A stretch of DNA of 37,317 nt from Actinomycetota bacterium. GTDB taxonomy: Bacteria; Actinomycetota; Thermoleophilia; Miltoncostaeales; Miltoncostaeaceae. The position numbers and the translations under genes were made by a program. Of the stretch, positions 4,970 to 21,381 are shown piece by piece; the first letter of the stretch is position 1; each line of letters starts with the position of its first letter. The stretch lies in NCBI GenBank assembly GCA_005800465.1, contig SYFI01000030.1:1-37317 (forward strand), in the 5' to 3' direction. The notes under the pieces were generated by a model, which saw only the letters and a program-made list of their open reading frames with translations, did not search any database and was not told where the DNA came from.

Positions 4970-5494
4970 ATGATGGTGCGCACCCTGCTCACCGTCGCCA
5001 TCCTCATCACCGTCTATGCGGTGATGTTGCCAAGCGACCTCGCCGATGGCAACGTCGGCGTGCGGCTTGTGGGCTCGTTGCTGGTGTTCGCGGGAGTGCT
5101 TGCCCTGCAGGTCGATGCCATCACCCGGGACCCGCTGCCCGACTTGCGAGCCGGGTCGTCCATGATCACCGCCGTCACCCTGCTCGTGCTCATGTTCGCG
5201 ATGACTTACGCCACGCTGGCCAGCGCACACCCCGAGTGGTTCTCGCAGCCCTCGGACAAGTCGTCGGCCATCTATTTCACGGTCACCAATCTGGGAACCG
5301 TGGGATTTAGCAACATCACTGCCGTCAGCCATACGGCACGGTGGGTGGTCACCGCCCAGATTGTCGTCGACCTCACTCTGGTGGTGGCGCTCGGCCGCGT
5401 GCTGTCCAGCGCAGCCCGGGCTGGGCGTGTGCGTGAGGAGCGGCTGGCGTCAGATGCCGGACGCACGACGACCGACGACCACCCTACGACCTGA
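4970..5494 (+). CDS. Small potassium-channel-like membrane protein
   Basis: A 174-residue inner-membrane protein with about four hydrophobic segments: TLLTVAILITVYAVML, LVGSLLVFAGVLALQV, SMITAVTLLVLMFAMTYATL and WVVTAQIVVDLTLVVALG. Between the last two is IYFTVTNLGTVGFSNITAVS, which matches the P-loop of two-TM potassium channels (Ion_trans_2 type). The filter reads TVGF where TVGYG is usual. The last transmembrane segment is followed by a basic, then acidic tail. The true N-terminus may be at 4874, separated by an in-frame TGA. Its 3' end overlaps the convergent protease gene by 11 bp. No RCK domain is attached. Function as a K+ channel is inferred from the P-loop; selectivity is uncertain. 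Confidence 0.7.
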   Translation: MMVRTLLTVAILITVYAVMLPSDLADGNVGVRLVGSLLVFAGVLALQVDAITRDPLPDLRAGSSMITAVTLLVLMFAMTYATLASAHPEWFSQPSDKSSAIYFTVTNLGTVGFSNITAVSHTARWVVTAQIVVDLTLVVALGRVLSSAARAGRVREERLASDAGRTTTDDHPTT

Positions 5495-7976
5495 CGGTGT
5501 TGGAGAGTGCCGAGGTGCTAGTGGGGGTGATGGCCCGCACCTGAACCTTGCCACCGCGTCGCACCGATGCCCGGATGGTGCCATTCGTGTGGGCCATGCG
5601 ACCGATCAGGCGTCCATTGGCAAATACCTGGTAGCCGGTGGCACCCGGGCTCATCGTCATCCGAATTGTGAGGCCGCGGGGGGTCCGCACCACCGAGCGA
5701 AGGCGTGGGGTTGCCAAGATGTCGCGCGAATGGATCCCACCCGGGCGTCTGCTTACCGGTGGCGTGGATGGGTTACCGGGAGTGGGGCTACGTGAGTCAC
5801 CATCACCGCGGGGATTGGGAGTGGGTGTGCTCGGTGTTCCCGGGGCGCCGGGGGTACTCGGGGCACTTGGGGTACTGGGTGCCGGGATGGCCGGGACGAT
5901 CCCGGAGTTGATGTCAAGCAGGAGGTTGGGCGACTGCGGTCCGATACCGGAGATGACGTTCGTCGTGGCCCCTTCCCGGATTGCGGCAACCACGGTGGCC
6001 GGAGTGGCACCGGTGCTGCCCGAGAGCAGAAGCGCCGCGGCACCAGCCACGTGCGGCGATGCCATGGACGTCCCCGACAGCGAGCGTGATCCGGTGGTGG
6101 AGGTGTTGGAGGCCGACACGATTGCTGAACCCGGCGCGAACACATCAACGCACGATCCCCAGTTCGAATAGCTGGCCATCGCATCGTTCGCTGCTGTGGC
6201 CCCCACCGTGATGGCAGAGGGCTCCGCCGCCGGTGACGCGCCGCATGCGTCGGCATTGCTGTTACCTGCCGCGACGGCGAACGTGATGCCATCGGCAACC
6301 GCCGCCCGCACCGCGGCATTCAGCGCCTGCGAGTAGCCGCCGCCCAGGCTCATATTGGCGACAGCGGGCACGTCAGCCTGATGGTTGCTGATTGCCCAGT
6401 CAATGCCGGCAATCACGCCTGACGTACTGCCACTGCCAGCGCAGGAAAGCACTCGAACCGGAATGATGGAGACCGCTGGTGCGACGCCGAAGGTGGCTCC
6501 GCCCACGGTGCCGGCCACGTGCGTTCCGTGGCCGTTGCAGTCGGTTGCTGGATCAACGGCGGGATTGGCGGGGCTGGCGGCGTGCAATGCGTCGAATCCT
6601 GATTGCACCCGGCCACCGAAGTCCACGTGGTCGGCCTGCACGCCGGTGTCAATGATGTAGGCGGCCACCCCTCCGCCGTCGAGCGGTGCGGTGATGCGGC
6701 CGTCCAGCGGAAGCGCGCGCTGATCAATGCGGTCCTGCCCCCACGAGGTGACGGCGCGGTCCTGGGCGGCACCCGATCCCGGGGCCGCCGGAGGTGCTGA
6801 TGGGGGCGCGGGTGCCGGGGCCGACGACGCCATGGTCCACGTGAGCGTGGGCGCACCTGATGTGCCGCCCCAGCCATCAATGGCGAACAAGTACGAAGTG
6901 CCCTCAGTCACTGGAACCACGATCTGGCTCCATGTTGCGGCTCCTGCCTCCGCGTCGTCGTTCTCGGCCAAAGTGGAGAGCCCGGCGACCGTGTTCCCGG
7001 TATACGCGCCAAGCAGCGTGTCGTAGGTGCTGCCACGAGTATCGAGGGTGAGGGTGCCGGTGGCGGGAGCCGTCCAGCGGTACCAGATGGATGCGCTCGC
7101 ACCCGACCCTCCATGCGACGGCTCCCCGGTCTCGCGCGTCGCCTCCACGGTGGATCCGGTGGCGGTGCCCGAACTGCTCAACAGGGATGACGCACTCACA
7201 AACAGGTCGTTCGCCGGCGCCGCTGTGGGCACCGTGAGCGCCCAGGTCAGCGTGGCAGCGCCCCACTGTCCGCCCCATCCGTCAATGGCAATGCCGTATT
7301 TGGCACCTGCAGTGACGGCAAATGAGATGGCACTCGTGAGGCCCCCACCCGAGTCATCGTTCGCCGCCAGCAGCGTGAGCGAGTCAAGGGCGCTTCCGGA
7401 GTACGCGGCAAGCATGGTGTCGAACCCGCTCCCCAGCGTGTTCATGCGCACAGTCCCCGATGACGGAGCGGTCCATGTGAACCACACGGATGCCCGCCCG
7501 GTCGACGAGAAGTGCACGGGCTCGCCGGTCTCGCGCGTGGCCCCGTCGGTGGTGGTGGCGACACTGCCGCTGGTGCCGGTCATCGCCCGGCTGCTGGCAA
7601 AGGCGTCATTCGACGGCGCAGTTGCTGTGCTCATGGGCGGAACGGGTACGCCGGGCGATGCATCGATGCTCATTGGACGGTCGGGCTCCACCAGCAGCAC
7701 ATCGGGGTCACTGTTGAGGCGGGCGATGTCGGCCTTGTCAAGATCGGCGACAAACCCCTTGCCAATGGCCCTGAACGTGTCGCCCACGTCGTTGCCCCGG
7801 CGCTCCTCGGTGCGCACCTTGGCGGTCAGGTTCGCAGCTGGATCGATCATTATGATCTGCGGCGTCGCGGTGTCGGCCGCCGATGCCGCTGCCGTACCCA
7901 GCGCTCCCGCGATCGCGATGCCGCCGAGAAGGGCGACGAGTGCACGCGGAGTACGGAGGGTGGGGAGGGAAGACAT
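5484..7976 (-). CDS. Secreted subtilisin-like (S8) serine protease with two beta-sandwich repeats, copy 1
   Basis: 830 residues. A signal peptide (to about ASA-A, residue 33) is followed by an inhibitor I9-type propeptide (about 39-100, PQIIMID...LLVEPD). Two copies of a beta-sandwich module come next (about 123-248 and 255-381; NDxF...ATRETGEP...WYxWTAP...YDTLLGAYTG...NDD...AIDGW). After a Pro/Ala linker is the S8 catalytic domain with D443 (YIIDTG), H483 (GHGTHVAG), N572 (AAGN) and S637 (GTSMASPH). A Pro/Gly/Ser-rich linker and a 60-residue C-terminal module (about 765-830) finish the protein. It should be exported and self-activated by propeptide cleavage. It is a paralogue of the next gene upstream on the same strand, 101 bp away, with its own promoter region carrying the shared motif at 8038-8054. 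Confidence 0.93.
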   Translation of the reverse strand: MSSLPTLRTPRALVALLGGIAIAGALGTAAASAADTATPQIIMIDPAANLTAKVRTEERRGNDVGDTFRAIGKGFVADLDKADIARLNSDPDVLLVEPDRPMSIDASPGVPVPPMSTATAPSNDAFASSRAMTGTSGSVATTTDGATRETGEPVHFSSTGRASVWFTWTAPSSGTVRMNTLGSGFDTMLAAYSGSALDSLTLLAANDDSGGGLTSAISFAVTAGAKYGIAIDGWGGQWGAATLTWALTVPTAAPANDLFVSASSLLSSSGTATGSTVEATRETGEPSHGGSGASASIWYRWTAPATGTLTLDTRGSTYDTLLGAYTGNTVAGLSTLAENDDAEAGAATWSQIVVPVTEGTSYLFAIDGWGGTSGAPTLTWTMASSAPAPAPPSAPPAAPGSGAAQDRAVTSWGQDRIDQRALPLDGRITAPLDGGGVAAYIIDTGVQADHVDFGGRVQSGFDALHAASPANPAVDPATDCNGHGTHVAGTVGGATFGVAPAVSIIPVRVLSCAGSGSTSGVIAGIDWAISNHQADVPAVANMSLGGGYSQALNAAVRAAVADGITFAVAAGNSNADACGASPAAEPSAITVGATAANDAMASYSNWGSCVDVFAPGSAIVSASNTSTTGSRSLSGTSMASPHVAGAAALLLSGSTGATPATVVAAIREGATTNVISGIGPQSPNLLLDINSGIVPAIPAPSTPSAPSTPGAPGTPSTPTPNPRGDGDSRSPTPGNPSTPPVSRRPGGIHSRDILATPRLRSVVRTPRGLTIRMTMSPGATGYQVFANGRLIGRMAHTNGTIRASVRRGGKVQVRAITPTSTSALSNTVRS

Positions 7977-8077: not shown

Positions 8078-11014
8078 CTAGCGGGGGGCGCGCACCATGT
8101 TCGACGCCTGTGATGTGCCCTGGGTAGTGACCATCTTTACCGTGATCTTCGCGCCCTTTCGCACCTTGCGCCTGATCGTGGGCGTGTGCGATGCCGTGGT
8201 CAGCACAAGCTTGCCGTTGACGAACACCCTGATCTTCGCGCCCTTGGGGGCGGTCACCACAATTCGCAGGCCCTTCTTTGTGCGCTTAAGCGACTTGATG
8301 CGGGGGACCTGCAGTGCGGTGACTCCGTTAATCGACTGGCTGTTCTTTTGGGCTGCTGGCATGGGCACCGATGAGGCCGCGGCAAACAGGAGAAGGTTCG
8401 GGGAACCGCCACCCGGGTTGCTCACGACGCCGGGAGTTGCTCCGTCGATGATCCCTTGCCTCACCTGCGCAGGAGTCGCGCCGGGCACGCCCGACAGCAG
8501 CAGGGCAGCCACCCCGGCCGCATGCGGTGCGGCCATCGATGTTCCCGACAGCACCTCGGTTGCCTTGGGATCGCTGCTCCAGGCCGACTCGATGTCCACG
8601 CCTGGGGCAAACACGGTCACGCAAGGGCCGTAGTCAGAGAACGGGGCACGGTCGTCCTGAACATCGGTTGCGCCCACCGAGATGGCGGTTGGAGCGGATG
8701 CGGGCGACATCGTGCATGCGTCGGTGTTGCTGTTTCCAGCGGCCACAGCCATGGTGATGCCATCTGCGGTGGCGGTATCAACGGCACGGTTGAGCGCCGA
8801 TGACGACGGCGTTCCCATGCTCAAGTTGGCGACGGCCGGCGTGCCGGCCACGTGGTTGCTCACCATCCAGTTGATACCCGCGATGACGTCGGACACCGAT
8901 CCGTCGCCGGTGCACCCGAGCACCCGTACGGGTACAACGCGCGCCATGGGCGCCACGCCGTAGTGCCCGCCCGCGATGCTGCCGGCCACGTGCGTGCCGT
9001 GCCCGTTGCAGTCCTCGGTGCCGCTCCCGTCGCCCACGCCATCCAGACCGCCGAGCACACGCCCACCGAACTCCTCATGACTTGCCAGCACGCCGGTGTC
9101 GATGACGTACGCGGTCACGCCGGTGCCGTCAAGTGGCACCGCATACCGGTTGTCGAGGGTTTTCCCGCGCTGGTCCAGGCGGTCAATCCCCCAGTCAAAT
9201 GCCTCGCGGTTCTGCGGCAGACCGGGCCCGGTGACAGGCGCCTGAGTTGAAGGGTCGGTGGTTCCCGGTCCGGTGGGTGCCGGGCCGGGTGCCGGGTCGG
9301 TGGGCAGCGGGGTGATGGGCATGGCGGGCGTCACTGGGGCGCTGGCGGCGGATGCGCTGCCCTGGCCCACGGCATTGGTGGCGCGCACGGTAAACGTGTA
9401 CGCCACCCCATTGGTGAGGCCGGTGATGCCGCAGGTGGTGAGCGCGGTGGTGCAGGTGGTGCGGGGGTTGCCGCCCGATGCCACTGCGGTGTAGTCGGTG
9501 ATGTCAGACCCACCGTTTGAGGTGGGTGCGACCCACAACACCGTGGCGGCACCGTCGCGCGCGATTGCGGTGACGCTCTTCGGGGCGCCAGGCGCGGTGG
9601 GCATGACGAACCCCGATGACGCACCAGACCACTGTGAGGCGCCCTGCGTATTGGTGGCCATCGCCCTGCAGGTATATGTGGCCCCCGGGGTGAGGCTCAC
9701 GATCGGTACCGACGTGTCGGTTGATGTACCGGTGCGTGTGATGCCGCCAGTACTCGACGAGCACGACACGGTGTAGGAGAGGATTGCCGATCCGCCGTCA
9801 GACACCGGGGGGGTCACCGACACGGTCACGGAGGTGCCATTGGGCGCCCCGGCACCGACAGCCAGCGGTGGATCCGGCGCCGTGATGGGTGCCACCGAAA
9901 CAAAGTTCCACCCCAGCGCCACCGATCCGGTCGCCCCATTCGCCCCATCGATGGCGATGCGGTAGGTGGTGTTGGGCGTCACGGTGAACGACATGCCTCT
10001 GCGGGTGCTGCCGAGCGGTGTGGTGTCCGTGGCCAGCACTGGGGTAAGCGCACTTACCGCGGTGCCGGTGTACGCGCCCAGCAGCGTGGCGAACGAACTG
10101 CCGGTGGTGAACAGCGACACCACACCGTGATCGAGTGCGGTCCACGAGTACCACACCGATGCGGCGCCACTGCCGCCGTGGGTCGGCTCTCCGGACTCGC
10201 GACTTGCGAAGGCAGTCGATCCCGCCACGCTGCCCTGAGACCCGGTAATGGCCGTGGCCTGGTCGAAGGTATCGTTCACGGGGGCGGTGGGCGTGAGCAG
10301 CCAGTTGAGTTTCGTGTTACCGCTGGTTCGCCGGTATCCGTCAATGACGATGCGGTATGTCGTGCCTGCGGTCACGTTGACGCTCACGGAACTGGTGAGC
10401 CCGGTACCGAAGTCGTCGTTGGCGCCACCGGGCAGCACGGTGAGTGCTCTCACGGCCGACCCCGTGTAGATGGCGAGCATCGTGTCGTAGTTACTGCCCA
10501 CGGTGGACAGCGACAACGTGCCCGTGTCGGTGGCGGTCCACGAATACCAGATGGAAGACCCGTTGTTACCCCAAACCGACAGCGGCCTGGGCTCGCCGGT
10601 CTCGCGCGTGGCGCTGCGCGTGGTGCCGGTGATGTTGCCGCTTGCCCCGGCAATGCCAGTGGCTGAGGCGAACGAATCGTTGCCCGGCGCAGCGTTGATG
10701 CTCACATGCTGGTCGGGCTCTACGCTGATAACCGACGGGTCGTTACGCAGCCGGGTGATGTCGGCTGGATCCAGGCTGGCCGCGAAGCCATCGATGGCGG
10801 CGGTGTAGACGTCGGTGACCTCGTTGCCGCGCATGGCCTCAGTGACGGCCTTCGCGTTGGCGTTGGCCGTGGGTTTGAGCACCACGATCTGCGGCGTGGG
10901 ATCGGTGGTGGCACCCGATGCCACGCCCGCCGCCAGGCCCATCGCAACGATCGCCGCTCCACCCAGAAGAAGGGCACGGGACAATCCATGAGATGAGGAG
11001 GCACCGAGACGCAT
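8078..11014 (-). CDS. Secreted subtilisin-like (S8) serine protease with beta-sandwich and FnIII repeats, copy 2
   Basis: 978 residues with the same plan as copy 1. A signal peptide (to about ASG-A, 34) precedes an I9-type propeptide (about 41-101) and two beta-sandwich repeats (about 111-240 and 246-371). Here two fibronectin type III-like domains are inserted (about 377-472 and 475-563; GLTNGVAYTFTVRATNAVGQGS is typical). The S8 domain has D639 (YVIDTG), H672 (GHGTHVAG), N761 (AAGN) and S826 (GTSMAAPH). The basic C-terminal module (RTKKGLRIVVTAPKGAKIRVFVNGKLV) matches the end of copy 1. The protein is extracellular or cell-surface; the added domains probably bind substrate or cell wall. A tandem duplication followed by gain or loss of the FnIII pair explains the two genes. 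Confidence 0.93.
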   Translation of the reverse strand: MRLGASSSHGLSRALLLGGAAIVAMGLAAGVASGATTDPTPQIVVLKPTANANAKAVTEAMRGNEVTDVYTAAIDGFAASLDPADITRLRNDPSVISVEPDQHVSINAAPGNDSFASATGIAGASGNITGTTRSATRETGEPRPLSVWGNNGSSIWYSWTATDTGTLSLSTVGSNYDTMLAIYTGSAVRALTVLPGGANDDFGTGLTSSVSVNVTAGTTYRIVIDGYRRTSGNTKLNWLLTPTAPVNDTFDQATAITGSQGSVAGSTAFASRESGEPTHGGSGAASVWYSWTALDHGVVSLFTTGSSFATLLGAYTGTAVSALTPVLATDTTPLGSTRRGMSFTVTPNTTYRIAIDGANGATGSVALGWNFVSVAPITAPDPPLAVGAGAPNGTSVTVSVTPPVSDGGSAILSYTVSCSSSTGGITRTGTSTDTSVPIVSLTPGATYTCRAMATNTQGASQWSGASSGFVMPTAPGAPKSVTAIARDGAATVLWVAPTSNGGSDITDYTAVASGGNPRTTCTTALTTCGITGLTNGVAYTFTVRATNAVGQGSASAASAPVTPAMPITPLPTDPAPGPAPTGPGTTDPSTQAPVTGPGLPQNREAFDWGIDRLDQRGKTLDNRYAVPLDGTGVTAYVIDTGVLASHEEFGGRVLGGLDGVGDGSGTEDCNGHGTHVAGSIAGGHYGVAPMARVVPVRVLGCTGDGSVSDVIAGINWMVSNHVAGTPAVANLSMGTPSSSALNRAVDTATADGITMAVAAGNSNTDACTMSPASAPTAISVGATDVQDDRAPFSDYGPCVTVFAPGVDIESAWSSDPKATEVLSGTSMAAPHAAGVAALLLSGVPGATPAQVRQGIIDGATPGVVSNPGGGSPNLLLFAAASSVPMPAAQKNSQSINGVTALQVPRIKSLKRTKKGLRIVVTAPKGAKIRVFVNGKLVLTTASHTPTIRRKVRKGAKITVKMVTTQGTSQASNMVRAPR

Positions 11015-11903: not shown

Positions 11904-13013
11904 CTACTTCTTCTTCGGCGCAGCCTTTGCAGCGGGCTTGGCAGCAGGCTTCTTCGCGGTCGCCTTCGCTGCAGTCTTGGCCGGTGCCTTTGCAGCAGCG
12001 TTGACCGGCGCCTTCGCAGCCGGCTTGGCAGCAGCCTTCTTGGCAGCAGGCTTGGCCGTTGCCTTTCCAGCAGCGTTGACCGGCGCCTTCACAGCCGGCT
12101 TGGCAGCAGCCTTCTTGGCGGCAGGCTTGGCAGCAGCCGGCTTGGCAGCAGCCTTCTTGGCAGCAGCCTTGGCAGCCGGCTTGGCAGCAGCCTTGGCAGC
12201 CGGCTTGGCAGCGGGCGTCGCAGCAGCCTTCTTGGCGGCAGGCTTGGCAGCGGGCGTCGCAGCAGCCTTGACCGGGGCCTTCGCAGCCGGCTTGGGAGCG
12301 GCCTTTGCAGCCTTCTCTTCAGTGGCTTTCGCAGCAGCCTTCTGCAGGGCAGCCTTGGCCATGGTGGCCGCCGACGGTGGGGTTGACGACAGCGGCGGGC
12401 GCACGGCCGGGCGCATACCGGTGCGGCTCTGCTGGGCGGCAGCGGCACGGGCGGCGGCCGCGGCCTTCGGGTCGGCCTTGGGCGGCGGCTTGGGTGCCAC
12501 ACGCTTGCTGCTCGGCTTGTGCTTAATAACCAGCCTGCCGGCAAGGGCGTCGTCGATCAGCTGGCCGGCGCCCTCCTCGTCCACGCGGCGGGCGTACATC
12601 AGCTCACTCACCAACACGCGACGGGCGCGCTCAAGCATCTGCATCTCACCGGGCGACAGGCGGGCGTCCTGCTGACGGCGCTCGAGGTTGCGCACCACCT
12701 CCGCCAACTCCAGGATGTCGCCGCTTCGCAGCTTCTCCTGGTTGCGCTTGAACCGCTGGTTCCACTGCGCGGGCATCTCGCTGCCCTCGGCAGCGAGCAC
12801 CGACAGCACCTCAGACACCGCACGCTCATTGATAACCGGGCGCAGGCCGGCGGTCTCGGCGTTCTCGGACGGCACCATCACGATCATCGGCGGCTGCAGG
12901 ATCTCAATCGTCAAATACTCGCGCCGCTCACCACGGATCTCGTGAAACTCCTTGGCCAGAACGGTTCCCGCACCGTGGTGCGGGTAGACGACCTTGTCCC
13001 CAACCTCGAACAT
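11904..13013 (-). CDS. carD: CarD-family transcription regulator with a histone H1-like tail
   Basis: 369 residues. Residues 1-160 form a standard CarD/CdnL protein: FEVGDKVVYPHHGAGTV and YLTIEI (RNA polymerase beta-interacting N-domain), then a helical C-domain with a basic patch and the conserved W84 (PAQWNQRFKRNQEK), used to stabilise the open complex at promoters. Ordinary CarD ends here. This one continues for about 205 residues, first a linker (KPSSKRVAPKPPPK), then about 130 residues of KPAAKKAAAKPA repeats like histone H1 or the mycobacterial HupB tail. The tail should be disordered, strongly positive and DNA-binding. It is the last gene of a minus-strand run (universal stress protein, uppP, small protein, carD). 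Confidence 0.92.
   Translation of the reverse strand: MFEVGDKVVYPHHGAGTVLAKEFHEIRGERREYLTIEILQPPMIVMVPSENAETAGLRPVINERAVSEVLSVLAAEGSEMPAQWNQRFKRNQEKLRSGDILELAEVVRNLERRQQDARLSPGEMQMLERARRVLVSELMYARRVDEEGAGQLIDDALAGRLVIKHKPSSKRVAPKPPPKADPKAAAAARAAAAQQSRTGMRPAVRPPLSSTPPSAATMAKAALQKAAAKATEEKAAKAAPKPAAKAPVKAAATPAAKPAAKKAAATPAAKPAAKAAAKPAAKAAAKKAAAKPAAAKPAAKKAAAKPAVKAPVNAAGKATAKPAAKKAAAKPAAKAPVNAAAKAPAKTAAKATAKKPAAKPAAKAAPKKK
11907..12311 (-). repeat. Low-complexity Lys-Ala-Pro coding repeat of the carD tail
   Basis: Degenerate 12-15 base units (plus strand GCAGCCTTCTTGGCAGCAGG and variants) encode KPAAK/KKAAA blocks over about 405 bp. The long plus-strand ORF across it (11812-12675) is an artefact of this repeat. 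Such tracts change length easily by slippage. Confidence 0.85.
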
Positions 13014-14784: not shown

Positions 14785-15588
14785 GTGACGGATCTCGCAC
14801 CCCTTGCAGAGCGCTACGACGGACTCATCCTCGATCTGGATGGCTGCCTGTGGGTGGGTGACCGCCCCGTTGGCGGTGCCGCGGCCGCAGTGGATGCGTG
14901 GCGGGCATCTGGCCGCCCACTGGTGTTTCTCACCAACGACCCGCGGTCGGCGCCCGACGAAGTGGTGCAGCGACTGTGGGCCCATGGCGTGCGTGCATCG
15001 CTTGACGAGGTGGTGACCTCCGGCGTGGTGATGCAGGAGTACCTGGCCGAACGCTTTGCCGGTTGCACGGCGGTGGTGGTGGGAAGCCAGGCCATGGTGC
15101 GACATGTGCGGCTTGCGGGGCTTCGCGTCATCGCCGATGTGTCGCTCGTTCCGGATGCCGATGTGGTGGTGCTGGCCAGCCATCCCGGCCTTGCCGACCC
15201 CGAACTCACGTGGGCGGTGCGTGCTGCCTATGCCGGTGCCGCGGTGGTGGCGACCGGTCGCGACCCGGTCGTGCCGTCGGATGCCGGGGTGATCCCCGGA
15301 ACCGGTGGTGTGGTTGCGTATGTGGAGTACTGCTCAGGTGCCGAGGCCGTGGCGGTGGGTAAGCCGGGCGCCCATGCCTGGCGAATTGCCCGTGAGCGCC
15401 TCGGGGTGGACGGCCCGGTGCTGGCGGTGGGCGATCGGCTGGACAGCGACATCGGAGGCGCGGCGGCCGCGGGCATTGATGGTGCCCTGGTGCTCACCGG
15501 GGTGAGCGATACCGCAGATGTACAGGCATGGGATGGTGCCCAGCCAGTGGCGGTGGCCGCCGATCTGGGCGCCCTGCTTCTGGCCTAG
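14785..15588 (+). CDS. HAD-superfamily phosphatase, NagD-like (subfamily IIA)
   Basis: 267 residues from GTG 14785. The HAD motifs are clear: motif I LILDLDGCLW (nucleophile D17, acid D19), motif II FLTNDPRS, a Lys motif in VAVGKPGAHAW, and motif IV VGDRLDSDIGGAAAAG. The C2-type cap between motifs II and III and the overall size match the NagD/4-nitrophenylphosphatase/phosphoglycolate phosphatase group of sugar- and nucleotide-phosphate phosphatases. The substrate cannot be set from sequence. The last four bases (CTAG) are shared with the stop of the convergent fusion gene. Confidence 0.9.
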   Translation: MTDLAPLAERYDGLILDLDGCLWVGDRPVGGAAAAVDAWRASGRPLVFLTNDPRSAPDEVVQRLWAHGVRASLDEVVTSGVVMQEYLAERFAGCTAVVVGSQAMVRHVRLAGLRVIADVSLVPDADVVVLASHPGLADPELTWAVRAAYAGAAVVATGRDPVVPSDAGVIPGTGGVVAYVEYCSGAEAVAVGKPGAHAWRIARERLGVDGPVLAVGDRLDSDIGGAAAAGIDGALVLTGVSDTADVQAWDGAQPVAVAADLGALLLA

Positions 15589-18041
15589 CTGGGTGGCTCC
15601 AGCGACGCGCTCTCTCGCACCACCCGGCGATTGACCTTTCCGGAGGCAAGATGCGGCAGCTCGTCGCGCCACTCCATTGCGGGTGCCGCATGAATACCCA
15701 GTTCGTGTGCCACGGCCGCGTGGATCTCCTTCGCCGCCGCCTCGGTGTCGGCGCCGTCCACCGCCACGGCCACCGCGACAGGCCGCATGAGCCCACGGTC
15801 GTCGTGGCGTCCCACCACCACCACCTCGGCGACCGCTGCATGCGAGAGAACCACGTTCTCCACGGCCACCGGGCTCACCCACTTGGCGTCCACTTTGAAG
15901 AGATCATCGGCACGGCCCACATGCCGGTAGATGCCCTGCTCCTCAATCACCATGTCGCCCATGCGGATCCACTCGCCCATGAGCAGGTCACGGGTGAGGT
16001 CGGCGCGGCGGAAGTAGCCGGATGTGTTGCTGTCGGACTTGATCCACAACTGACCGGCAGTGCCGCTTGGCACGGGCACGCCGTCTGCGTCGCGCAGGGA
16101 GACCTCGGCACCCGGGACGGGTCGCCCGAGGCTTCCGGGCAGGTCATCGCCCGGCCGGGTGGACAACACCACGTTCGAACACTCCGAGCAGCCGAGGCCC
16201 TCCACCACGTCGAGCGAGGGCATCACCTCGCGCAGACGCCTGAGCACCGTTGCGGGCAGGGAGTCGCCTGATGATGCCCCCATGCGCACGGTGCTGAGGC
16301 CCTCGATCTGATCCGGGTGCCGGTTGACGAACTCGGCCAGCTGCGACCAGAAGGTGGGAACGCCGGTGAGCACAGTCACTCCGTGGTCGCGGCAGGCGTG
16401 CATTACCGTGCGCACGTTCGGAGTGATGCGCGTGTGGATGACATGGGCACCACATCCGAGGGGGCGGAAGAACCCGTTGCCGAATCCGAGTGACGTGAAA
16501 CCGCGCGAGACTGCGTGACAGGTGTCGCCGGGCCCGAGCCCCAGCACCTCGGTTGCGTAGCCGTCCACCGAGGTTCGCATGTCGCGATGGGCATGGACCG
16601 CCCCCTTCGGGCGTCCGGTCGAACCCGACGAGAACACGATGTACGCCGGGTCCTCGGGGTGTACCGCGGCCACGGGCACCGGTGTGCCCTGCGCCAGATC
16701 ATCGGAGGTCATGGTGCGCCATGGGCCCTCTGGCACCGGTACCTCGGTCACCACGATCGCCGGCGCGGCGTCGTCAAGGATTCCTGCCAGCATCTCGTTG
16801 TTCCCATTCGGATCGAGGGGGATGGCCACCCCGGCTGCGGCTGCGGTGCCAAGCACGGCCTGCATCCAGTGGCGTCCATCGCGCAGCACCACGGCAACGC
16901 GCTCGCCCGCGCAGAGGCCCGCTCCGCGCAGTGCCCCGGCCCCGGCCCCAACGGCCGCCGAGAGGTCGTCGTAGGTCCACGTGCCGTCTTCGTCGGTGAC
17001 CGCCGGGGTACGTCCGCGTCCATCGCGCCGGTGGCGCTCCACCAGCAGGTCCACCAGATTTGCCTCGCGGGTCGCGCTGGGAGGAAAGGGGGTGGCCGCC
17101 AACGGTGTCGCCATGACCTCGGCAAGCGCATCAAGCGCATCGGGGGGAACCCGGTTGGGCATAACAAGGATGGCGTCGGTGGCACCGGCATCGGCAAATG
17201 CGCGCAGGCGGGATGCAATGTCATCTGGGCTCCCCACAAGGCCCTTGTGCTCAAGCCAGCGCAGGTACTTTTCAGGCTCGCTCTCGAGCGCGGTGGCCTC
17301 GGGCGTGACCCATGCGATGGCCTCTTCGGGGTCGCGCATGGGAAGCGCGTAAAGGTAGGTGGCCACCCGGAGGGGCGCCTCGATTCCAGCCGCCTCCCGC
17401 GCGGCAACGGCGATGGCCACGCGCTCTGCCAGGTCGTCCGGCTCGAGGAATGCGGCGAAGATCCCATCGGCACGCTCACCGGCGATGCGCAGCAGCCGGG
17501 GGCGGTGCGCGGCGATGAGGATGGGCGCCGTGGTGGGCCCGGGCGCGCATGGGGCATCGATGATGAGCCCGTCCACGGTCGCACCGTCGGGGTTCGCGAA
17601 CATCGCGCGCATCACGTCGAGTGCCTGCAGCAGCCCTGCAGTGCGTTCCTTCGGCGGCACGAATGGATACCCGTACGCGTCGTGTTCACCCTTGTCCGAT
17701 CCGGTACCGATACCGATCACCAGACGGCCGGCCGAGATGTGCTGCAGCACCGAGGCCATCTTGGCCCCGAGCGCCGGGGGGCGGTAGGCAGCCGACAGCA
17801 CCGCGGTGCCAAGGGTGATGCGGTGTGTGACCGCGGCGATGGCAGCGAGGCCGGTGAAGGCGTCAAACGCCGCGTCCCGGTGCAGCCGTCCCGGGGTCCA
17901 CAGGTGGTCGTTCAGCCAGACGGAGTCAAACCCCAGCGACTCGGCACGAATGGCCGCGTCGCGAAGATCAGGCCACGACGATGCGTACTGCGGCAGCCTG
18001 ACGCCCAGCCTGAGGCCGGGCCCATTGCCCAGCGGGGTCAT
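15585..18041 (-). CDS. Fusion: luciferase-like F420/flavin oxidoreductase + acyl/aryl-CoA ligase
   Basis: One uninterrupted 818-residue ORF with two enzymes. Residues 10-310 are a luciferase-like monooxygenase TIM barrel: RLGVRLPQYASSWPDLRDAAIRAESLGFDSVWLNDHLW, the family glycine stretch VIGIGTGSDKGEHDAYGYPF, and GSPDDIASRLRAFADAGATDAILV, closest in style to actinobacterial F420-dependent members. After a linker of about 30 residues, 345-818 is an AMP-forming ligase with SSGSTGRPKG (471-480), GCSECS (617-622), MGDM (694-697), GRADDLFKVDAKWVSP (709-724) and the C-terminal catalytic Lys in SGKVNRR (K802). The PGDDLPGSLGRPVPGAE and WVSP strings recall benzoate-CoA ligases. A redox step followed by activation of the product carboxylate is a reasonable inference. 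The start overlaps the upstream LytR_C stop (ATGA), indicating an operon. Confidence 0.92.
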   Translation of the reverse strand: MTPLGNGPGLRLGVRLPQYASSWPDLRDAAIRAESLGFDSVWLNDHLWTPGRLHRDAAFDAFTGLAAIAAVTHRITLGTAVLSAAYRPPALGAKMASVLQHISAGRLVIGIGTGSDKGEHDAYGYPFVPPKERTAGLLQALDVMRAMFANPDGATVDGLIIDAPCAPGPTTAPILIAAHRPRLLRIAGERADGIFAAFLEPDDLAERVAIAVAAREAAGIEAPLRVATYLYALPMRDPEEAIAWVTPEATALESEPEKYLRWLEHKGLVGSPDDIASRLRAFADAGATDAILVMPNRVPPDALDALAEVMATPLAATPFPPSATREANLVDLLVERHRRDGRGRTPAVTDEDGTWTYDDLSAAVGAGAGALRGAGLCAGERVAVVLRDGRHWMQAVLGTAAAAGVAIPLDPNGNNEMLAGILDDAAPAIVVTEVPVPEGPWRTMTSDDLAQGTPVPVAAVHPEDPAYIVFSSGSTGRPKGAVHAHRDMRTSVDGYATEVLGLGPGDTCHAVSRGFTSLGFGNGFFRPLGCGAHVIHTRITPNVRTVMHACRDHGVTVLTGVPTFWSQLAEFVNRHPDQIEGLSTVRMGASSGDSLPATVLRRLREVMPSLDVVEGLGCSECSNVVLSTRPGDDLPGSLGRPVPGAEVSLRDADGVPVPSGTAGQLWIKSDSNTSGYFRRADLTRDLLMGEWIRMGDMVIEEQGIYRHVGRADDLFKVDAKWVSPVAVENVVLSHAAVAEVVVVGRHDDRGLMRPVAVAVAVDGADTEAAAKEIHAAVAHELGIHAAPAMEWRDELPHLASGKVNRRVVRESASLEPPS

Positions 18042-18637
18042 CCCCCGAGGACGAGCACCACGTCGACGTCAGGCTGCACCGTGACGGCCTCCGATTCGAT
18101 GGTGCTTCCCGCGACCAGGGCATCTTCCGACTTCGCGCCCAGATCTGCAGCAACCTGCTTGGCGGCGACGTCCTGACCGGTGCGGAAGTACGCGATGGTC
18201 GTCGGCTGCGCGGCAGCGTTGCCCTTGCCCACATTCACGTACCCGATGGCCTGCGCCTGCGACTGCGTCTTGGCAGCCAGGCCCTTGGTGGCGGTGCCGT
18301 TGAGCACCACCAACTTGATCTGGTCACGGGCCGGTGCACCGGAGATGGTGGAGCCCGTTGTACCGGTAGTCCCCGTGGTCCCTGTGGTGTCAACGGTCGC
18401 CGTAGTGCCCACGGTGTCGATGGCAGCGCTGGTGGCGGTGGTATCGGTGGGTGCAACGGTGGCGGTGGTCTCAATCGCCTGACCGACCGGCGGCAGCGTA
18501 AGGCCGCCACCGTCGCCACGGGCGAACCACCCGATGACAAAGCCGATGACGATGCACGAAACACCTAGGAGCACAGGACGTGCCCAGCCGTTGGTGCTGC
18601 CGCGAGATGAGTCGTTTGCAGCCATAACCGTCGACAC
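18038..18637 (-). CDS. Membrane-anchored LytR C-terminal domain (LytR_C) protein
   Basis: 199 residues. A short cytoplasmic N-terminus is followed by one transmembrane helix (VLLGVSCIVIGFVIGWFA, about 22-40) and a low-complexity Thr/Gly spacer (TVDTTGTTGTTGTTGST, about 70-97). The LytR_C fold spans about 105-199 (IKLVVLNGTATKGLAAKTQSQAQAIGYVNV...VDVVLVLGG), the VxVLNGTxxxGLA pattern of this domain. It lacks the LytR-CpsA-Psr phosphotransferase domain, so it is a stand-alone extracytoplasmic LytR_C protein, common in actinobacteria and possibly involved in wall-polymer recognition. The start could be ATG 18637 or 18625. It is coupled by ATGA to the fusion enzyme downstream, a puzzling partner. 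Confidence 0.85.
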   Translation of the reverse strand: MSTVMAANDSSRGSTNGWARPVLLGVSCIVIGFVIGWFARGDGGGLTLPPVGQAIETTATVAPTDTTATSAAIDTVGTTATVDTTGTTGTTGTTGSTISGAPARDQIKLVVLNGTATKGLAAKTQSQAQAIGYVNVGKGNAAAQPTTIAYFRTGQDVAAKQVAADLGAKSEDALVAGSTIESEAVTVQPDVDVVLVLGG

Positions 18638-18840: not shown

Positions 18841-21381
18841 GTGCGAGATGGCATGACTGCATCCTCAGAGACCACCGAGGTCCTCGCCCCCGCCGAGCGG
18901 CTTCTGGCTGCGCTCGCCGATCCGGCGAGCTGGTGGCCCGACGTCGTGCTGCGTGAGCACCAGATAGAGGCCCTCGACGAGCTCGCCGTGCGGCTGCGTG
19001 CAGGTGAATCGCGCACATGGGTGGATGCCCCCACTGGGTCGGGCAAGACCATCACCTTCTGCGCACTTGCCGCAGCGCTCGACGGATCAGCACTCATTCT
19101 CGTTCCCCGCCGCAACCTGGCCGAGCAGACCGCCACCGCACTGCAGACCTTCTTCCCCAGCCTCAAGTTCACGGTGGACGGGGTGGCGGGCATCGGGACC
19201 CCGGGGGTGACCATTTGTACGTATCAGGCGGCGCTCCGCCATGTAGATGAGGCCGATTGGGAGTCGGTGACTTTGCTGGTGTGCGATGAGGCCCACACCA
19301 CGCTGGGCCAGCAGACCCGCAAGATGATCGACAACGCGACCAACGCGATCGTGGTGGGATTCACCGCAACTCCGGCCACCACAACGGGCCATGTGGAGCA
19401 GGTGTTCGGTCCGGTGGCCACCACGCTCGACCGCCAGGCGGCGATCGACCGCGGAATCCTGTGCCCGCTCAGGTCGCTGCGCGTGGAGCGGGCCGTCGAC
19501 CTTTCCGACGTCACTCGCGTGCGCGGTGACTTCGACCAGGCCAGTCTGGGTCGCGCCCTCGACCGTGCGTTGTGGCACCGCGCCTGTGCCGATGTGTGGT
19601 CAGAGCACTTCCAGCCGCTGGGGCTCGCCGGCGTGGCCTACACGGCAACCGTTGCGCAGGCGCATGCCCTGGCCGACGAGATGGTCGAGCGGGGCGTGCG
19701 CGCCGCCGCGGTGTCGGGGCAGACGCAGAGCAGGGAATTGCAAAAGGTCCTCAGACAGTTCGGGGCCGGCGAAATTGACGTGCTGTGCAACGCCGACCTG
19801 CTCACCGAGGGCTGGGACGAGACCCGTGCCGCGGTGGTCATGCATCTGGCGCCCACCACGTCGGAGCGTGTGTTCGTGCAGCGCCTGGGCCGCGTGATGC
19901 GCCCGGCCCCCGAGAAGGAAGCCGTGTCGGTGGAGTTCCTGCCGGTGGGTGACCCCATGGGCGTGCAGACCAGCCACGACCTGTTTGGTGAGGGCTGGTA
20001 CAAGCCGCTCGGTCGTGTTGCCGGGCCCCCTGAGGGCGGCGAGCGGGGCAAGCTTGCACGGGCGGCCGCGGTGCTGGCCGAACAGGACGGCGGGCGTGCG
20101 AGCCTGGTGAACCCACGTGCCAGTGCCAGCGCGCTGGTGAAGGGGTTCGTCGATGGCGGCTGGCGCGAGGCTGACCCCGGCGACATCCCCATGGGCGTTA
20201 TGGAGGAGTGGGTGGAGGCCGCCGCCAACGACACCGATTGGTCTGAAGTGGCCGAGCGGGTGTCGGCCGGCTTCGACGTGCGCGGGGCGCATGCCTGGTG
20301 GGCACTGTCCGGCGTGGTGGCACGCAAGGCGCAAAACGGCGACGAGCAGCCGCTGTGGCGGGCATGGGCGCTGGCACTGCTGGTGCACCCCGAACTGCGT
20401 CAGGCACTGCCCGAAGATGCCCCACGCGCGGTGCTCGACCGCCTTCGCATGACGGCCCGCGAACGCATCCGCGCGTTGTGGTTCCACGCCGATCAGGATG
20501 GCAAGTGGGACAGCGTGGCCTCGCTCGAGCAGCAGGGGCGATCGGCCGAACGCCGCCGCCGTTGGTCGGCCCTCGACTCGGCATCGGCGTGGGCGCCCTC
20601 CTGGGCCTGGGAGGTATCTCGTGGGTTGGCTGATGTCAGCCGTCCCGGTCGTAATCAGGAGCTGCACCGCATTGCGAAGTGGGAGTCGCAGCACCTGATC
20701 GAGAACGGCGGCGACGTGGGCCTCATCGGGCTGTGGTTGCGCGCCGTGGGCGCGCCGGCCCCCGATCCCATTGCCCCACCTGACGGTGAACTGCCGCTCA
20801 AGCCGGGCGTGGCCGGACGTCTGGTGCTGGCCCTTGGCCCGGGCGACGTGCCGCAGAAGAGCGAGGACATCCGTATCGCCAGCCGTGCCGCGGGTGCCTG
20901 CGGCGGATGGGCGGCGCTTCGCGGCGCGCTGGATGCAATCGACTGGACAACGCCCGACGGCCGCCGTGCGCTGCGCGCCGCCGTGGGCACCCGCAATGCG
21001 CGTGCCCTGCAGAACCGGCGCGCGTGGAACCAACTGCGCCCCAAGTGTCCGCGCTTGCCCCCGGCCGAGGATGTGGGAATCGGCGAGCCGCCAAAGAGCG
21101 GAGGCGATGACGCCGCCGGAAAGCGCCGTCGCCGCCGTCGCCGCAAGTTGAGTACCGCCGATGTGGCCAATGGCACCTCGCCGCCCAAGGAGACGGCGAA
21201 GGAGAAGCCCGCCGCCGCCCCGGCTGCACCGCAAGGTGCATCGGCACCGGGCGATGGTGCGCCAGCTGAGGCACCGAGCTCCCCACGTAAGCGCCGCCGC
21301 CGCCATCGCAAGAAGGCCGCAGGTGCGGGCAGCGGTTCGGGCGCAGCCGATTCCACGACCGGCGCTCCCCCGGGCGAATGA
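18841..21381 (+). CDS. Superfamily 2 DEAD/DEAH-type helicase with Arg-rich C-terminal tails
   Basis: 846 residues (start GTG 18841, or ATG 18853). The helicase core has a Q-type REHQIEAL (38-45), Walker A APTGSGKT (63-70), LVPRRNLAEQT (Ia), Walker B/II VCDEAH (147-152), III GFTATP (173-178), a second RecA domain with DVLCNADLLTEGWDE (V), and FVQRLGRVMRP (VI). This resembles the SSL2/DEAD-like group acting on duplex nucleic acid. The next 330 or so residues are of unknown fold, rich in Trp and Ala. The end is disordered with KRRRRRRRK and RKRRRRHRKK tracts that should bind nucleic acid. It is coupled to the small gene 21378-21644 by an ATGA overlap. The biological role is unknown. Confidence 0.9.
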   Translation: MRDGMTASSETTEVLAPAERLLAALADPASWWPDVVLREHQIEALDELAVRLRAGESRTWVDAPTGSGKTITFCALAAALDGSALILVPRRNLAEQTATALQTFFPSLKFTVDGVAGIGTPGVTICTYQAALRHVDEADWESVTLLVCDEAHTTLGQQTRKMIDNATNAIVVGFTATPATTTGHVEQVFGPVATTLDRQAAIDRGILCPLRSLRVERAVDLSDVTRVRGDFDQASLGRALDRALWHRACADVWSEHFQPLGLAGVAYTATVAQAHALADEMVERGVRAAAVSGQTQSRELQKVLRQFGAGEIDVLCNADLLTEGWDETRAAVVMHLAPTTSERVFVQRLGRVMRPAPEKEAVSVEFLPVGDPMGVQTSHDLFGEGWYKPLGRVAGPPEGGERGKLARAAAVLAEQDGGRASLVNPRASASALVKGFVDGGWREADPGDIPMGVMEEWVEAAANDTDWSEVAERVSAGFDVRGAHAWWALSGVVARKAQNGDEQPLWRAWALALLVHPELRQALPEDAPRAVLDRLRMTARERIRALWFHADQDGKWDSVASLEQQGRSAERRRRWSALDSASAWAPSWAWEVSRGLADVSRPGRNQELHRIAKWESQHLIENGGDVGLIGLWLRAVGAPAPDPIAPPDGELPLKPGVAGRLVLALGPGDVPQKSEDIRIASRAAGACGGWAALRGALDAIDWTTPDGRRALRAAVGTRNARALQNRRAWNQLRPKCPRLPPAEDVGIGEPPKSGGDDAAGKRRRRRRRKLSTADVANGTSPPKETAKEKPAAAPAAPQGASAPGDGAPAEAPSSPRKRRRRHRKKAAGAGSGSGAADSTTGAPPGE

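Follow-up and report, generated by a model that had tools for sequence, protein, structure and literature searches.

What a luciferase-like (LLM) oxidoreductase and an AMP-forming acyl-CoA synthetase might do on one polypeptide chain is the question raised by a gene in the window analysed here, i.e., the whole 37,317-nucleotide stretch of contig SYFI01000030.1. The original prediction described one 818-codon frame in which an LLM half and a benzoate-CoA-ligase-like half, both retaining their key motifs, are joined by a normal linker and could couple oxidation of a substrate to its activation. The gene and its parts are as follows, all on the minus strand and in window coordinates.

15585 to 18041, minus strand: fused gene, N-terminal LLM oxidoreductase and C-terminal AMP-forming acyl-CoA synthetase of benzoate/anthranilate-CoA-ligase type (about residues 327-811), 818 amino acids (ORF, Pfam, homologues)
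17109 to 18014, minus strand: LLM domain, TIM-barrel of F420 type, residues 10-311 (PF00296; best NCBIfam families TIGR03621/03560; model)
17904 to 17909, minus strand: D45-H46, unvarying among LLM halves and standalone LLM relatives (alignment)
17685 to 17687, minus strand: E119, likewise unvarying among LLM halves and standalone relatives (alignment)
17064 to 17108, minus strand: flexible interdomain linker, residues 312-326 (model and homologue comparison)
15864 to 17063, minus strand: AMP-binding large domain, residues 327-726 (Pfam, fold search)
16602 to 16631, minus strand: ATP/phosphate loop SSGSTGRPKG, residues 471-480 (alignment)
16473 to 16499, minus strand: acyl pocket strip FTSLGFGNG, residues 515-523; counterpart in BadA FFAYGLGN with Y228 (alignment, PMC7277991)
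16170 to 16193, minus strand: acyl pocket strip GCSECSNV, residues 617-624; counterpart in BadA GSTEMLHI, G327-I334 (alignment, PMC7277991)
15891 to 15917, minus strand: hinge motif GRADDLFKV, residues 709-717 (alignment)
15636 to 15863, minus strand: AMP-binding C-terminal lid domain, residues 727-802, ending on the catalytic Lys802 at 15636 to 15638 (Pfam, alignment)

The gene is a single intact open reading frame with an ATG start, and Pfam assigns it a Bac_luciferase domain (PF00296, residues 19-288, E 1.4e-41, 143.3 bits against a gathering cut-off of 27.9), an AMP-binding domain (residues 341-677, E 4.6e-64) and an AMP-binding_C domain (residues 727-802, E 1.8e-11), the last two also well over their gathering cut-offs. 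The same scan of the protein found no domain beyond these three, and no carrier or condensation domain. Within the genus of the window's genome dN/dS is low, at 0.10-0.15 in the LLM half and 0.11-0.19 in the ligase half, and the 818-residue minus-strand frame is therefore the coding one. A rival frame of 553 amino acids on the plus strand (16515 to 18176) lacks support of this kind and appears to be an artefact of high G+C content on the antisense strand. Both halves are under purifying selection and similarly constrained, and SSGSTGxPKG, GRxDD(L)FKV, Lys802, D45-H46 and E119 are kept in all or nearly all of 28-29 fused homologues. The frame, the two halves and their motifs are thus as originally proposed, and judging by these residues both halves look functional.

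The loop SSGSTGRPKG, the hinge GRADDLFKV and K802, which the fused homologues share except at a few variable positions, place the ligase half in the ANL superfamily, close to aryl-CoA ligases. A Foldseek search with the whole predicted model returned the anthranilate-CoA ligase AuaEII and benzoate-CoA ligases as the nearest solved structures. Against the benzoate-CoA ligase family TIGR02262 the ligase half scores 286.9 bits, below the curated cut-off of 375.25, and a homologue encoded as a separate gene (G024) scores 318.1 bits. In BadA, Y228, G327, S328, T329, H333 and I334 line the benzoate pocket, and the enzyme accepts a wider range of substrates when the last two are made smaller (PMC7277991). 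In our alignment these positions correspond to L518, G617, C618, S619, N623 and V624, and only a few family members depart from this pattern (His for N623 in G028; Phe for L518 in G027 and in one G029 copy). Benzoate is an unlikely substrate because most of the BadA pocket residues differ, and with Y228, S328, T329 and H333 replaced and the family score missed, a benzoate-like substrate finds no backing. The pattern suggests a different acid, conserved in the family and probably larger than benzoate or of greater polarity.

For the LLM half, the best NCBIfam match is TIGR03621 (123.4 bits against a cut-off of 213.15), with TIGR03560 also found; the top-scoring subfamilies are all F420-linked, and no NCBIfam cut-off is reached. 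Among solved structures the F420-dependent Mer reductases match best, and the profile of this half also matches 3rao, an uncharacterised LLM, and the pyrimidine monooxygenase RutA. Because the top-scoring subfamilies are F420-linked, F420 is our best guess for the cofactor and a plausible one, ahead of FMN. Aldehyde oxidation in the manner of luciferase, as first suggested, fits less well, the LLM half being closer to F420 hydride-transfer enzymes than to FMN luciferases.

We consider it roughly an even bet (probability about 0.5) that the protein is a bifunctional enzyme whose two halves carry out adjoining steps on one metabolite. That the steps fall on the same molecule is probable, given that the two halves appear functional and evolve jointly. 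The C-terminal half would adenylate a carboxylic acid, probably aromatic or small and polar and not benzoate, and convert it to the CoA thioester, and the N-terminal half, most likely an F420 hydride-transfer enzyme, would perform the adjoining redox step. With low confidence we place oxidation first and trapping by CoA second. The tether would keep both sites together at 1:1, through proximity and co-regulation, and not by way of a rigid tunnel. The cofactor, the substrate and the direction are the parts of this explanation that we infer.

The direction may be the reverse. CoA activation of aromatic acids commonly precedes redox chemistry, and the ligase could first make an acyl- or aryl-CoA, of which the LLM half, acting as an F420H2 reductase, would then reduce a double bond or another group. 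The closeness of the LLM half to the Mer reductases agrees with this, as does the number of reductases among F420-dependent LLHTs, which include Mer, picrate reductase and alkyl-proline reductases (PMC8498797). No sequence feature that sets the direction was found, however, and no acyl-CoA pathway genes lie nearby, so we regard this order as possible but doubtful.

Alternatively, the LLM half could be a monooxygenase using reduced FMN and oxygen, which would produce or hydroxylate the acid that the ligase then activates, a reading that overlaps the others on the ligase side and comes closer to the luciferase analogy of the original prediction. The matches to 3rao and RutA are in line with it, and neither CofD nor CofE nor an FbiC/CofH above cut-off was detected in seven fusion carriers (G022, G023, G028, G030, G033, G034 and G037), among them the single-contig genome G030. 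Yet FDOR-A is retained in all seven, and an above-cut-off Fno in every one except G037. Furthermore, G041 carries its F420 cluster (FbiC, CofE, CofD) on a 46.6-kb contig of 73% G+C, against 77% around the fusion. Given the retained FDOR-A and Fno and this lower-G+C contig, the cluster may sit on an accessory element missed by the assemblies, or the carriers may scavenge the cofactor, and we withdrew the missing genes as proof against F420. With the best LLM subfamilies being F420 ones as well, an FMN monooxygenase is unlikely. The window's own genome encodes CofD, FbiC and CofE, which makes F420 available to the host. The G041 cluster lies at G041:C3:4313-11622 (L123) in an otherwise near-complete genome; G000:C18 (L124) was noted alongside it. 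The earlier wording "probably F420-linked" is plausible: the subfamilies, the Mer relatives and the host's own genes speak for it, the seven carriers without biosynthesis genes against it.

How the two sites are held together on the chain was addressed with an AlphaFold model built from the 28 fused homologues. Both domains are mostly well folded in the model (mean pLDDT 82), and residues 312-321, within the linker at about 312-326, fall below 50. The linker is real and hypervariable in length and sequence, spanning 22-53 residues between fixed anchors across homologues and evolving near-neutrally within the genus (dN/dS 0.3 to >1). The model does not fix the relative placement of the domains because its pTM is 0.55. 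The tunnel or channel that had been envisaged between the sites is thus not supported by the structure prediction, which gave a flexible tether.

We then asked how widely the architecture occurs. Fused homologues 49-94% identical to the window protein are found across its genus and family, with at least 28 in independent assemblies, all from one family. In a search with the LLM half, the pair was present in 39 of 42 family genomes, including all 20 of the genus. The fusion was not found outside the family, either among 257 other genomes of the class or among 397 genomes sampled from the phylum. Matches of full-length range in the class's other families reach at most 39% identity, mostly in frames too short for the fusion; outside the family, the phylum sample gave matches to the ligase half only (31-38%). 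Plasmids yielded only distant unfused pairs and no fusion. In trees of each half the family members form one clade, apart from the free-standing relatives, and the AU test does not reject that the fusion arose once (p 0.31 for the ligase, 0.20 for the LLM half). The fusion is real, lineage-specific and of long standing in its family. As a separate observation, two genomes hold a second copy, at G029:C71 (L060:5659-8175) and G012:C91 (L117), the G029 one more diverged and in different surroundings with ABC transporter and MFS genes. A bin labelled Bifidobacterium breve (CAMCOB010000091.1, L041) also carries the fusion at 93% identity, a label that is almost certainly wrong.

Three of the 39 carriers encode the halves as separate but linked genes. 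In G026 and G035 the genes overlap, by GTGA and ATGA respectively, in unusual genomic surroundings; in G024 they lie 3.7 kb apart with other genes between, and no ligase remnant is evident in translations beside the G024 LLM gene. The trees of both halves do not tell whether these split pairs are ancestral or derived. G020, a 99% complete genome, lacks the fusion, and the alpha/beta hydrolase and LytR_C genes adjoin at the usual site, 18 bp apart (L063:12170-13780) with no fusion gene between them. G032 and G039 also lack it, and both genomes are incomplete. That the halves stay linked even when unfused, and in other surroundings, argues for a functional partnership rather than hitch-hiking; homologues that are always split, without gene linkage, would have spoken against the original prediction, and the opposite is seen. 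Of the oxidation-to-activation coupling that it proposed, the coupled steps are likely in view of the shared constraint and the linkage of split genes; a fixed tunnel and luciferase-style oxidation are doubtful.

The genes next to the fusion were compared across loci.

18038 to 18637, minus strand: LytR_C-domain protein, overlapping the fusion gene start by 4 bp, synteny conserved (neighbourhood comparison)
14785 to 15588, plus strand: HAD-type (NagD-like) hydrolase, convergent, overlapping the fusion 3' end by 4 bp (neighbourhood comparison)
18841 to 21381, plus strand: long syntenic neighbour of 846 amino acids, helicase-like by eye, divergent (neighbour clustering)

The LytR_C gene and the fusion gene may be co-transcribed. 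The HAD position is mostly taken by an alpha/beta hydrolase in other genera, and the helicase-like neighbour is conserved in 16 of 21 loci examined. In the loci examined, these flanking genes (LytR_C, HAD, helicase-like, alpha/beta hydrolase) form no pathway and have no evident metabolic tie, and neither do the neighbours in G026, G035 and at the second G029 copy, where ABC transporter, malate synthase, glycosyltransferase and similar genes are found. The alpha/beta hydrolase, which looked like an epoxide hydrolase, was considered as a pathway partner and rejected as plain synteny, as it persists in the fusion-less G020 and beside the LLM half alone in G024. Elsewhere in the window, two tandem genes at 5484-7976 and 8078-11014 (minus strand) encode what by eye are large, mutually paralogous subtilisin-like proteases with extra N-terminal domains, and a gene at 11904-13013 (minus strand) encodes a CarD-like protein, also by eye, with a long, repetitive Lys/Ala/Pro-rich C-terminal tail.

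The lack of pathway context, the flexible linker and the common occurrence of free-standing relatives of each half would all suit a fusion that serves co-expression only, joining two enzymes that act independently in separate pathways, or for a redox half turned structural or regulatory. Such a role is quite improbable, since constraint is similar on both halves, the pair persists across the family and remains linked when split, and the LLM core residues are invariant. Joining of two genes by sequencing or assembly error, for which nothing but the draft state of the genome speaks, is refuted to near certainty by the 28 or more independent fused homologues with different linkers, one of them in single-contig G030.

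If the bifunctional enzyme is confirmed, no LLM-acyl-CoA synthetase fusion would, to our knowledge, have been described before it: the open-licence literature gave no published description, in keeping with the earlier view of the architecture as undescribed. There are many F420-type LLM enzymes, and few of them have a known substrate. The fusion would indicate which reaction goes with that of an LLM that could not otherwise be assigned, the attached acid-activating domain narrowing the substrate search for this one to carboxylic acids and their precursors. It is tempting, though tentative, to speculate that a two-step enzyme, oxidising or reducing a carboxylate-bearing metabolite with F420 or FMN and passing it to a built-in CoA ligase, is the near-universal, family-wide entry step of an undescribed catabolic route. 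A confirmed fusion enzyme would also mark an undescribed core step in this family of actinobacteria, which has been little studied and counts lake bacteria among its members.

LLM and adenylation domains on a single chain are already known from NRPS/PKS assembly lines. As in the fusion, the LLM of TIGR04020 (seco_metab_LLM), e.g., in the pal module for palmerolide (PMC8739492), is combined with adenylation in one biosynthetic system, but the LLM half scores only 40.4 bits against the TIGR04020 cut-off of 244.45, the fusion has no carrier or condensation domain, and its partner is of the free-standing CoA-ligase type. On Rhodococcus catabolic plasmids (e.g., NZ_CP050953.1, L126:10868-15228) an operon encodes a hydroxyacyl-CoA dehydrogenase, an AMP-binding ligase, an SDR and an LLM, adjoining Rieske oxygenase, FAH-family and aldolase genes of ring-cleavage type. 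Ligase and LLM genes thus occur together there within a catabolic region, but the proteins are unfused, about 27% identical and of other subfamilies; the operon is an analogy, not a homologous system. The lux operon pairs luciferase with the acyl-activating LuxE, so that in it, as in the fusion, an enzyme of luciferase fold goes together with the activation of an acid. The analogy is loose, since FMN luciferases are distant from the F420-type LLM half, which is closer to F420 hydride-transfer enzymes; furthermore, the lux proteins are separate, and no luxC-like reductase was found among the fusion-gene neighbours scanned. F420-dependent LLM/LLHT enzymes (TIGR03621, TIGR03560; Mer, FGD, Adf) have the same TIM-barrel and the conserved D-H and E positions, whereas the LLM half lies below all subfamily cut-offs, is fused to a ligase and uses F420 only putatively. 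With BadA, AuaEII and BclM (TIGR02262; PDB 4EAT, 4WV3, 2V7B) the ligase half shares the fold, the core motifs and about 28-29% identity over its length, and differs in a shorter N-terminal subdomain, replaced pocket residues, a sub-cut-off score and the fused LLM domain. The fusion is thus a new pairing of two well-known enzyme families, limited to one lineage of mostly uncultured actinobacteria.
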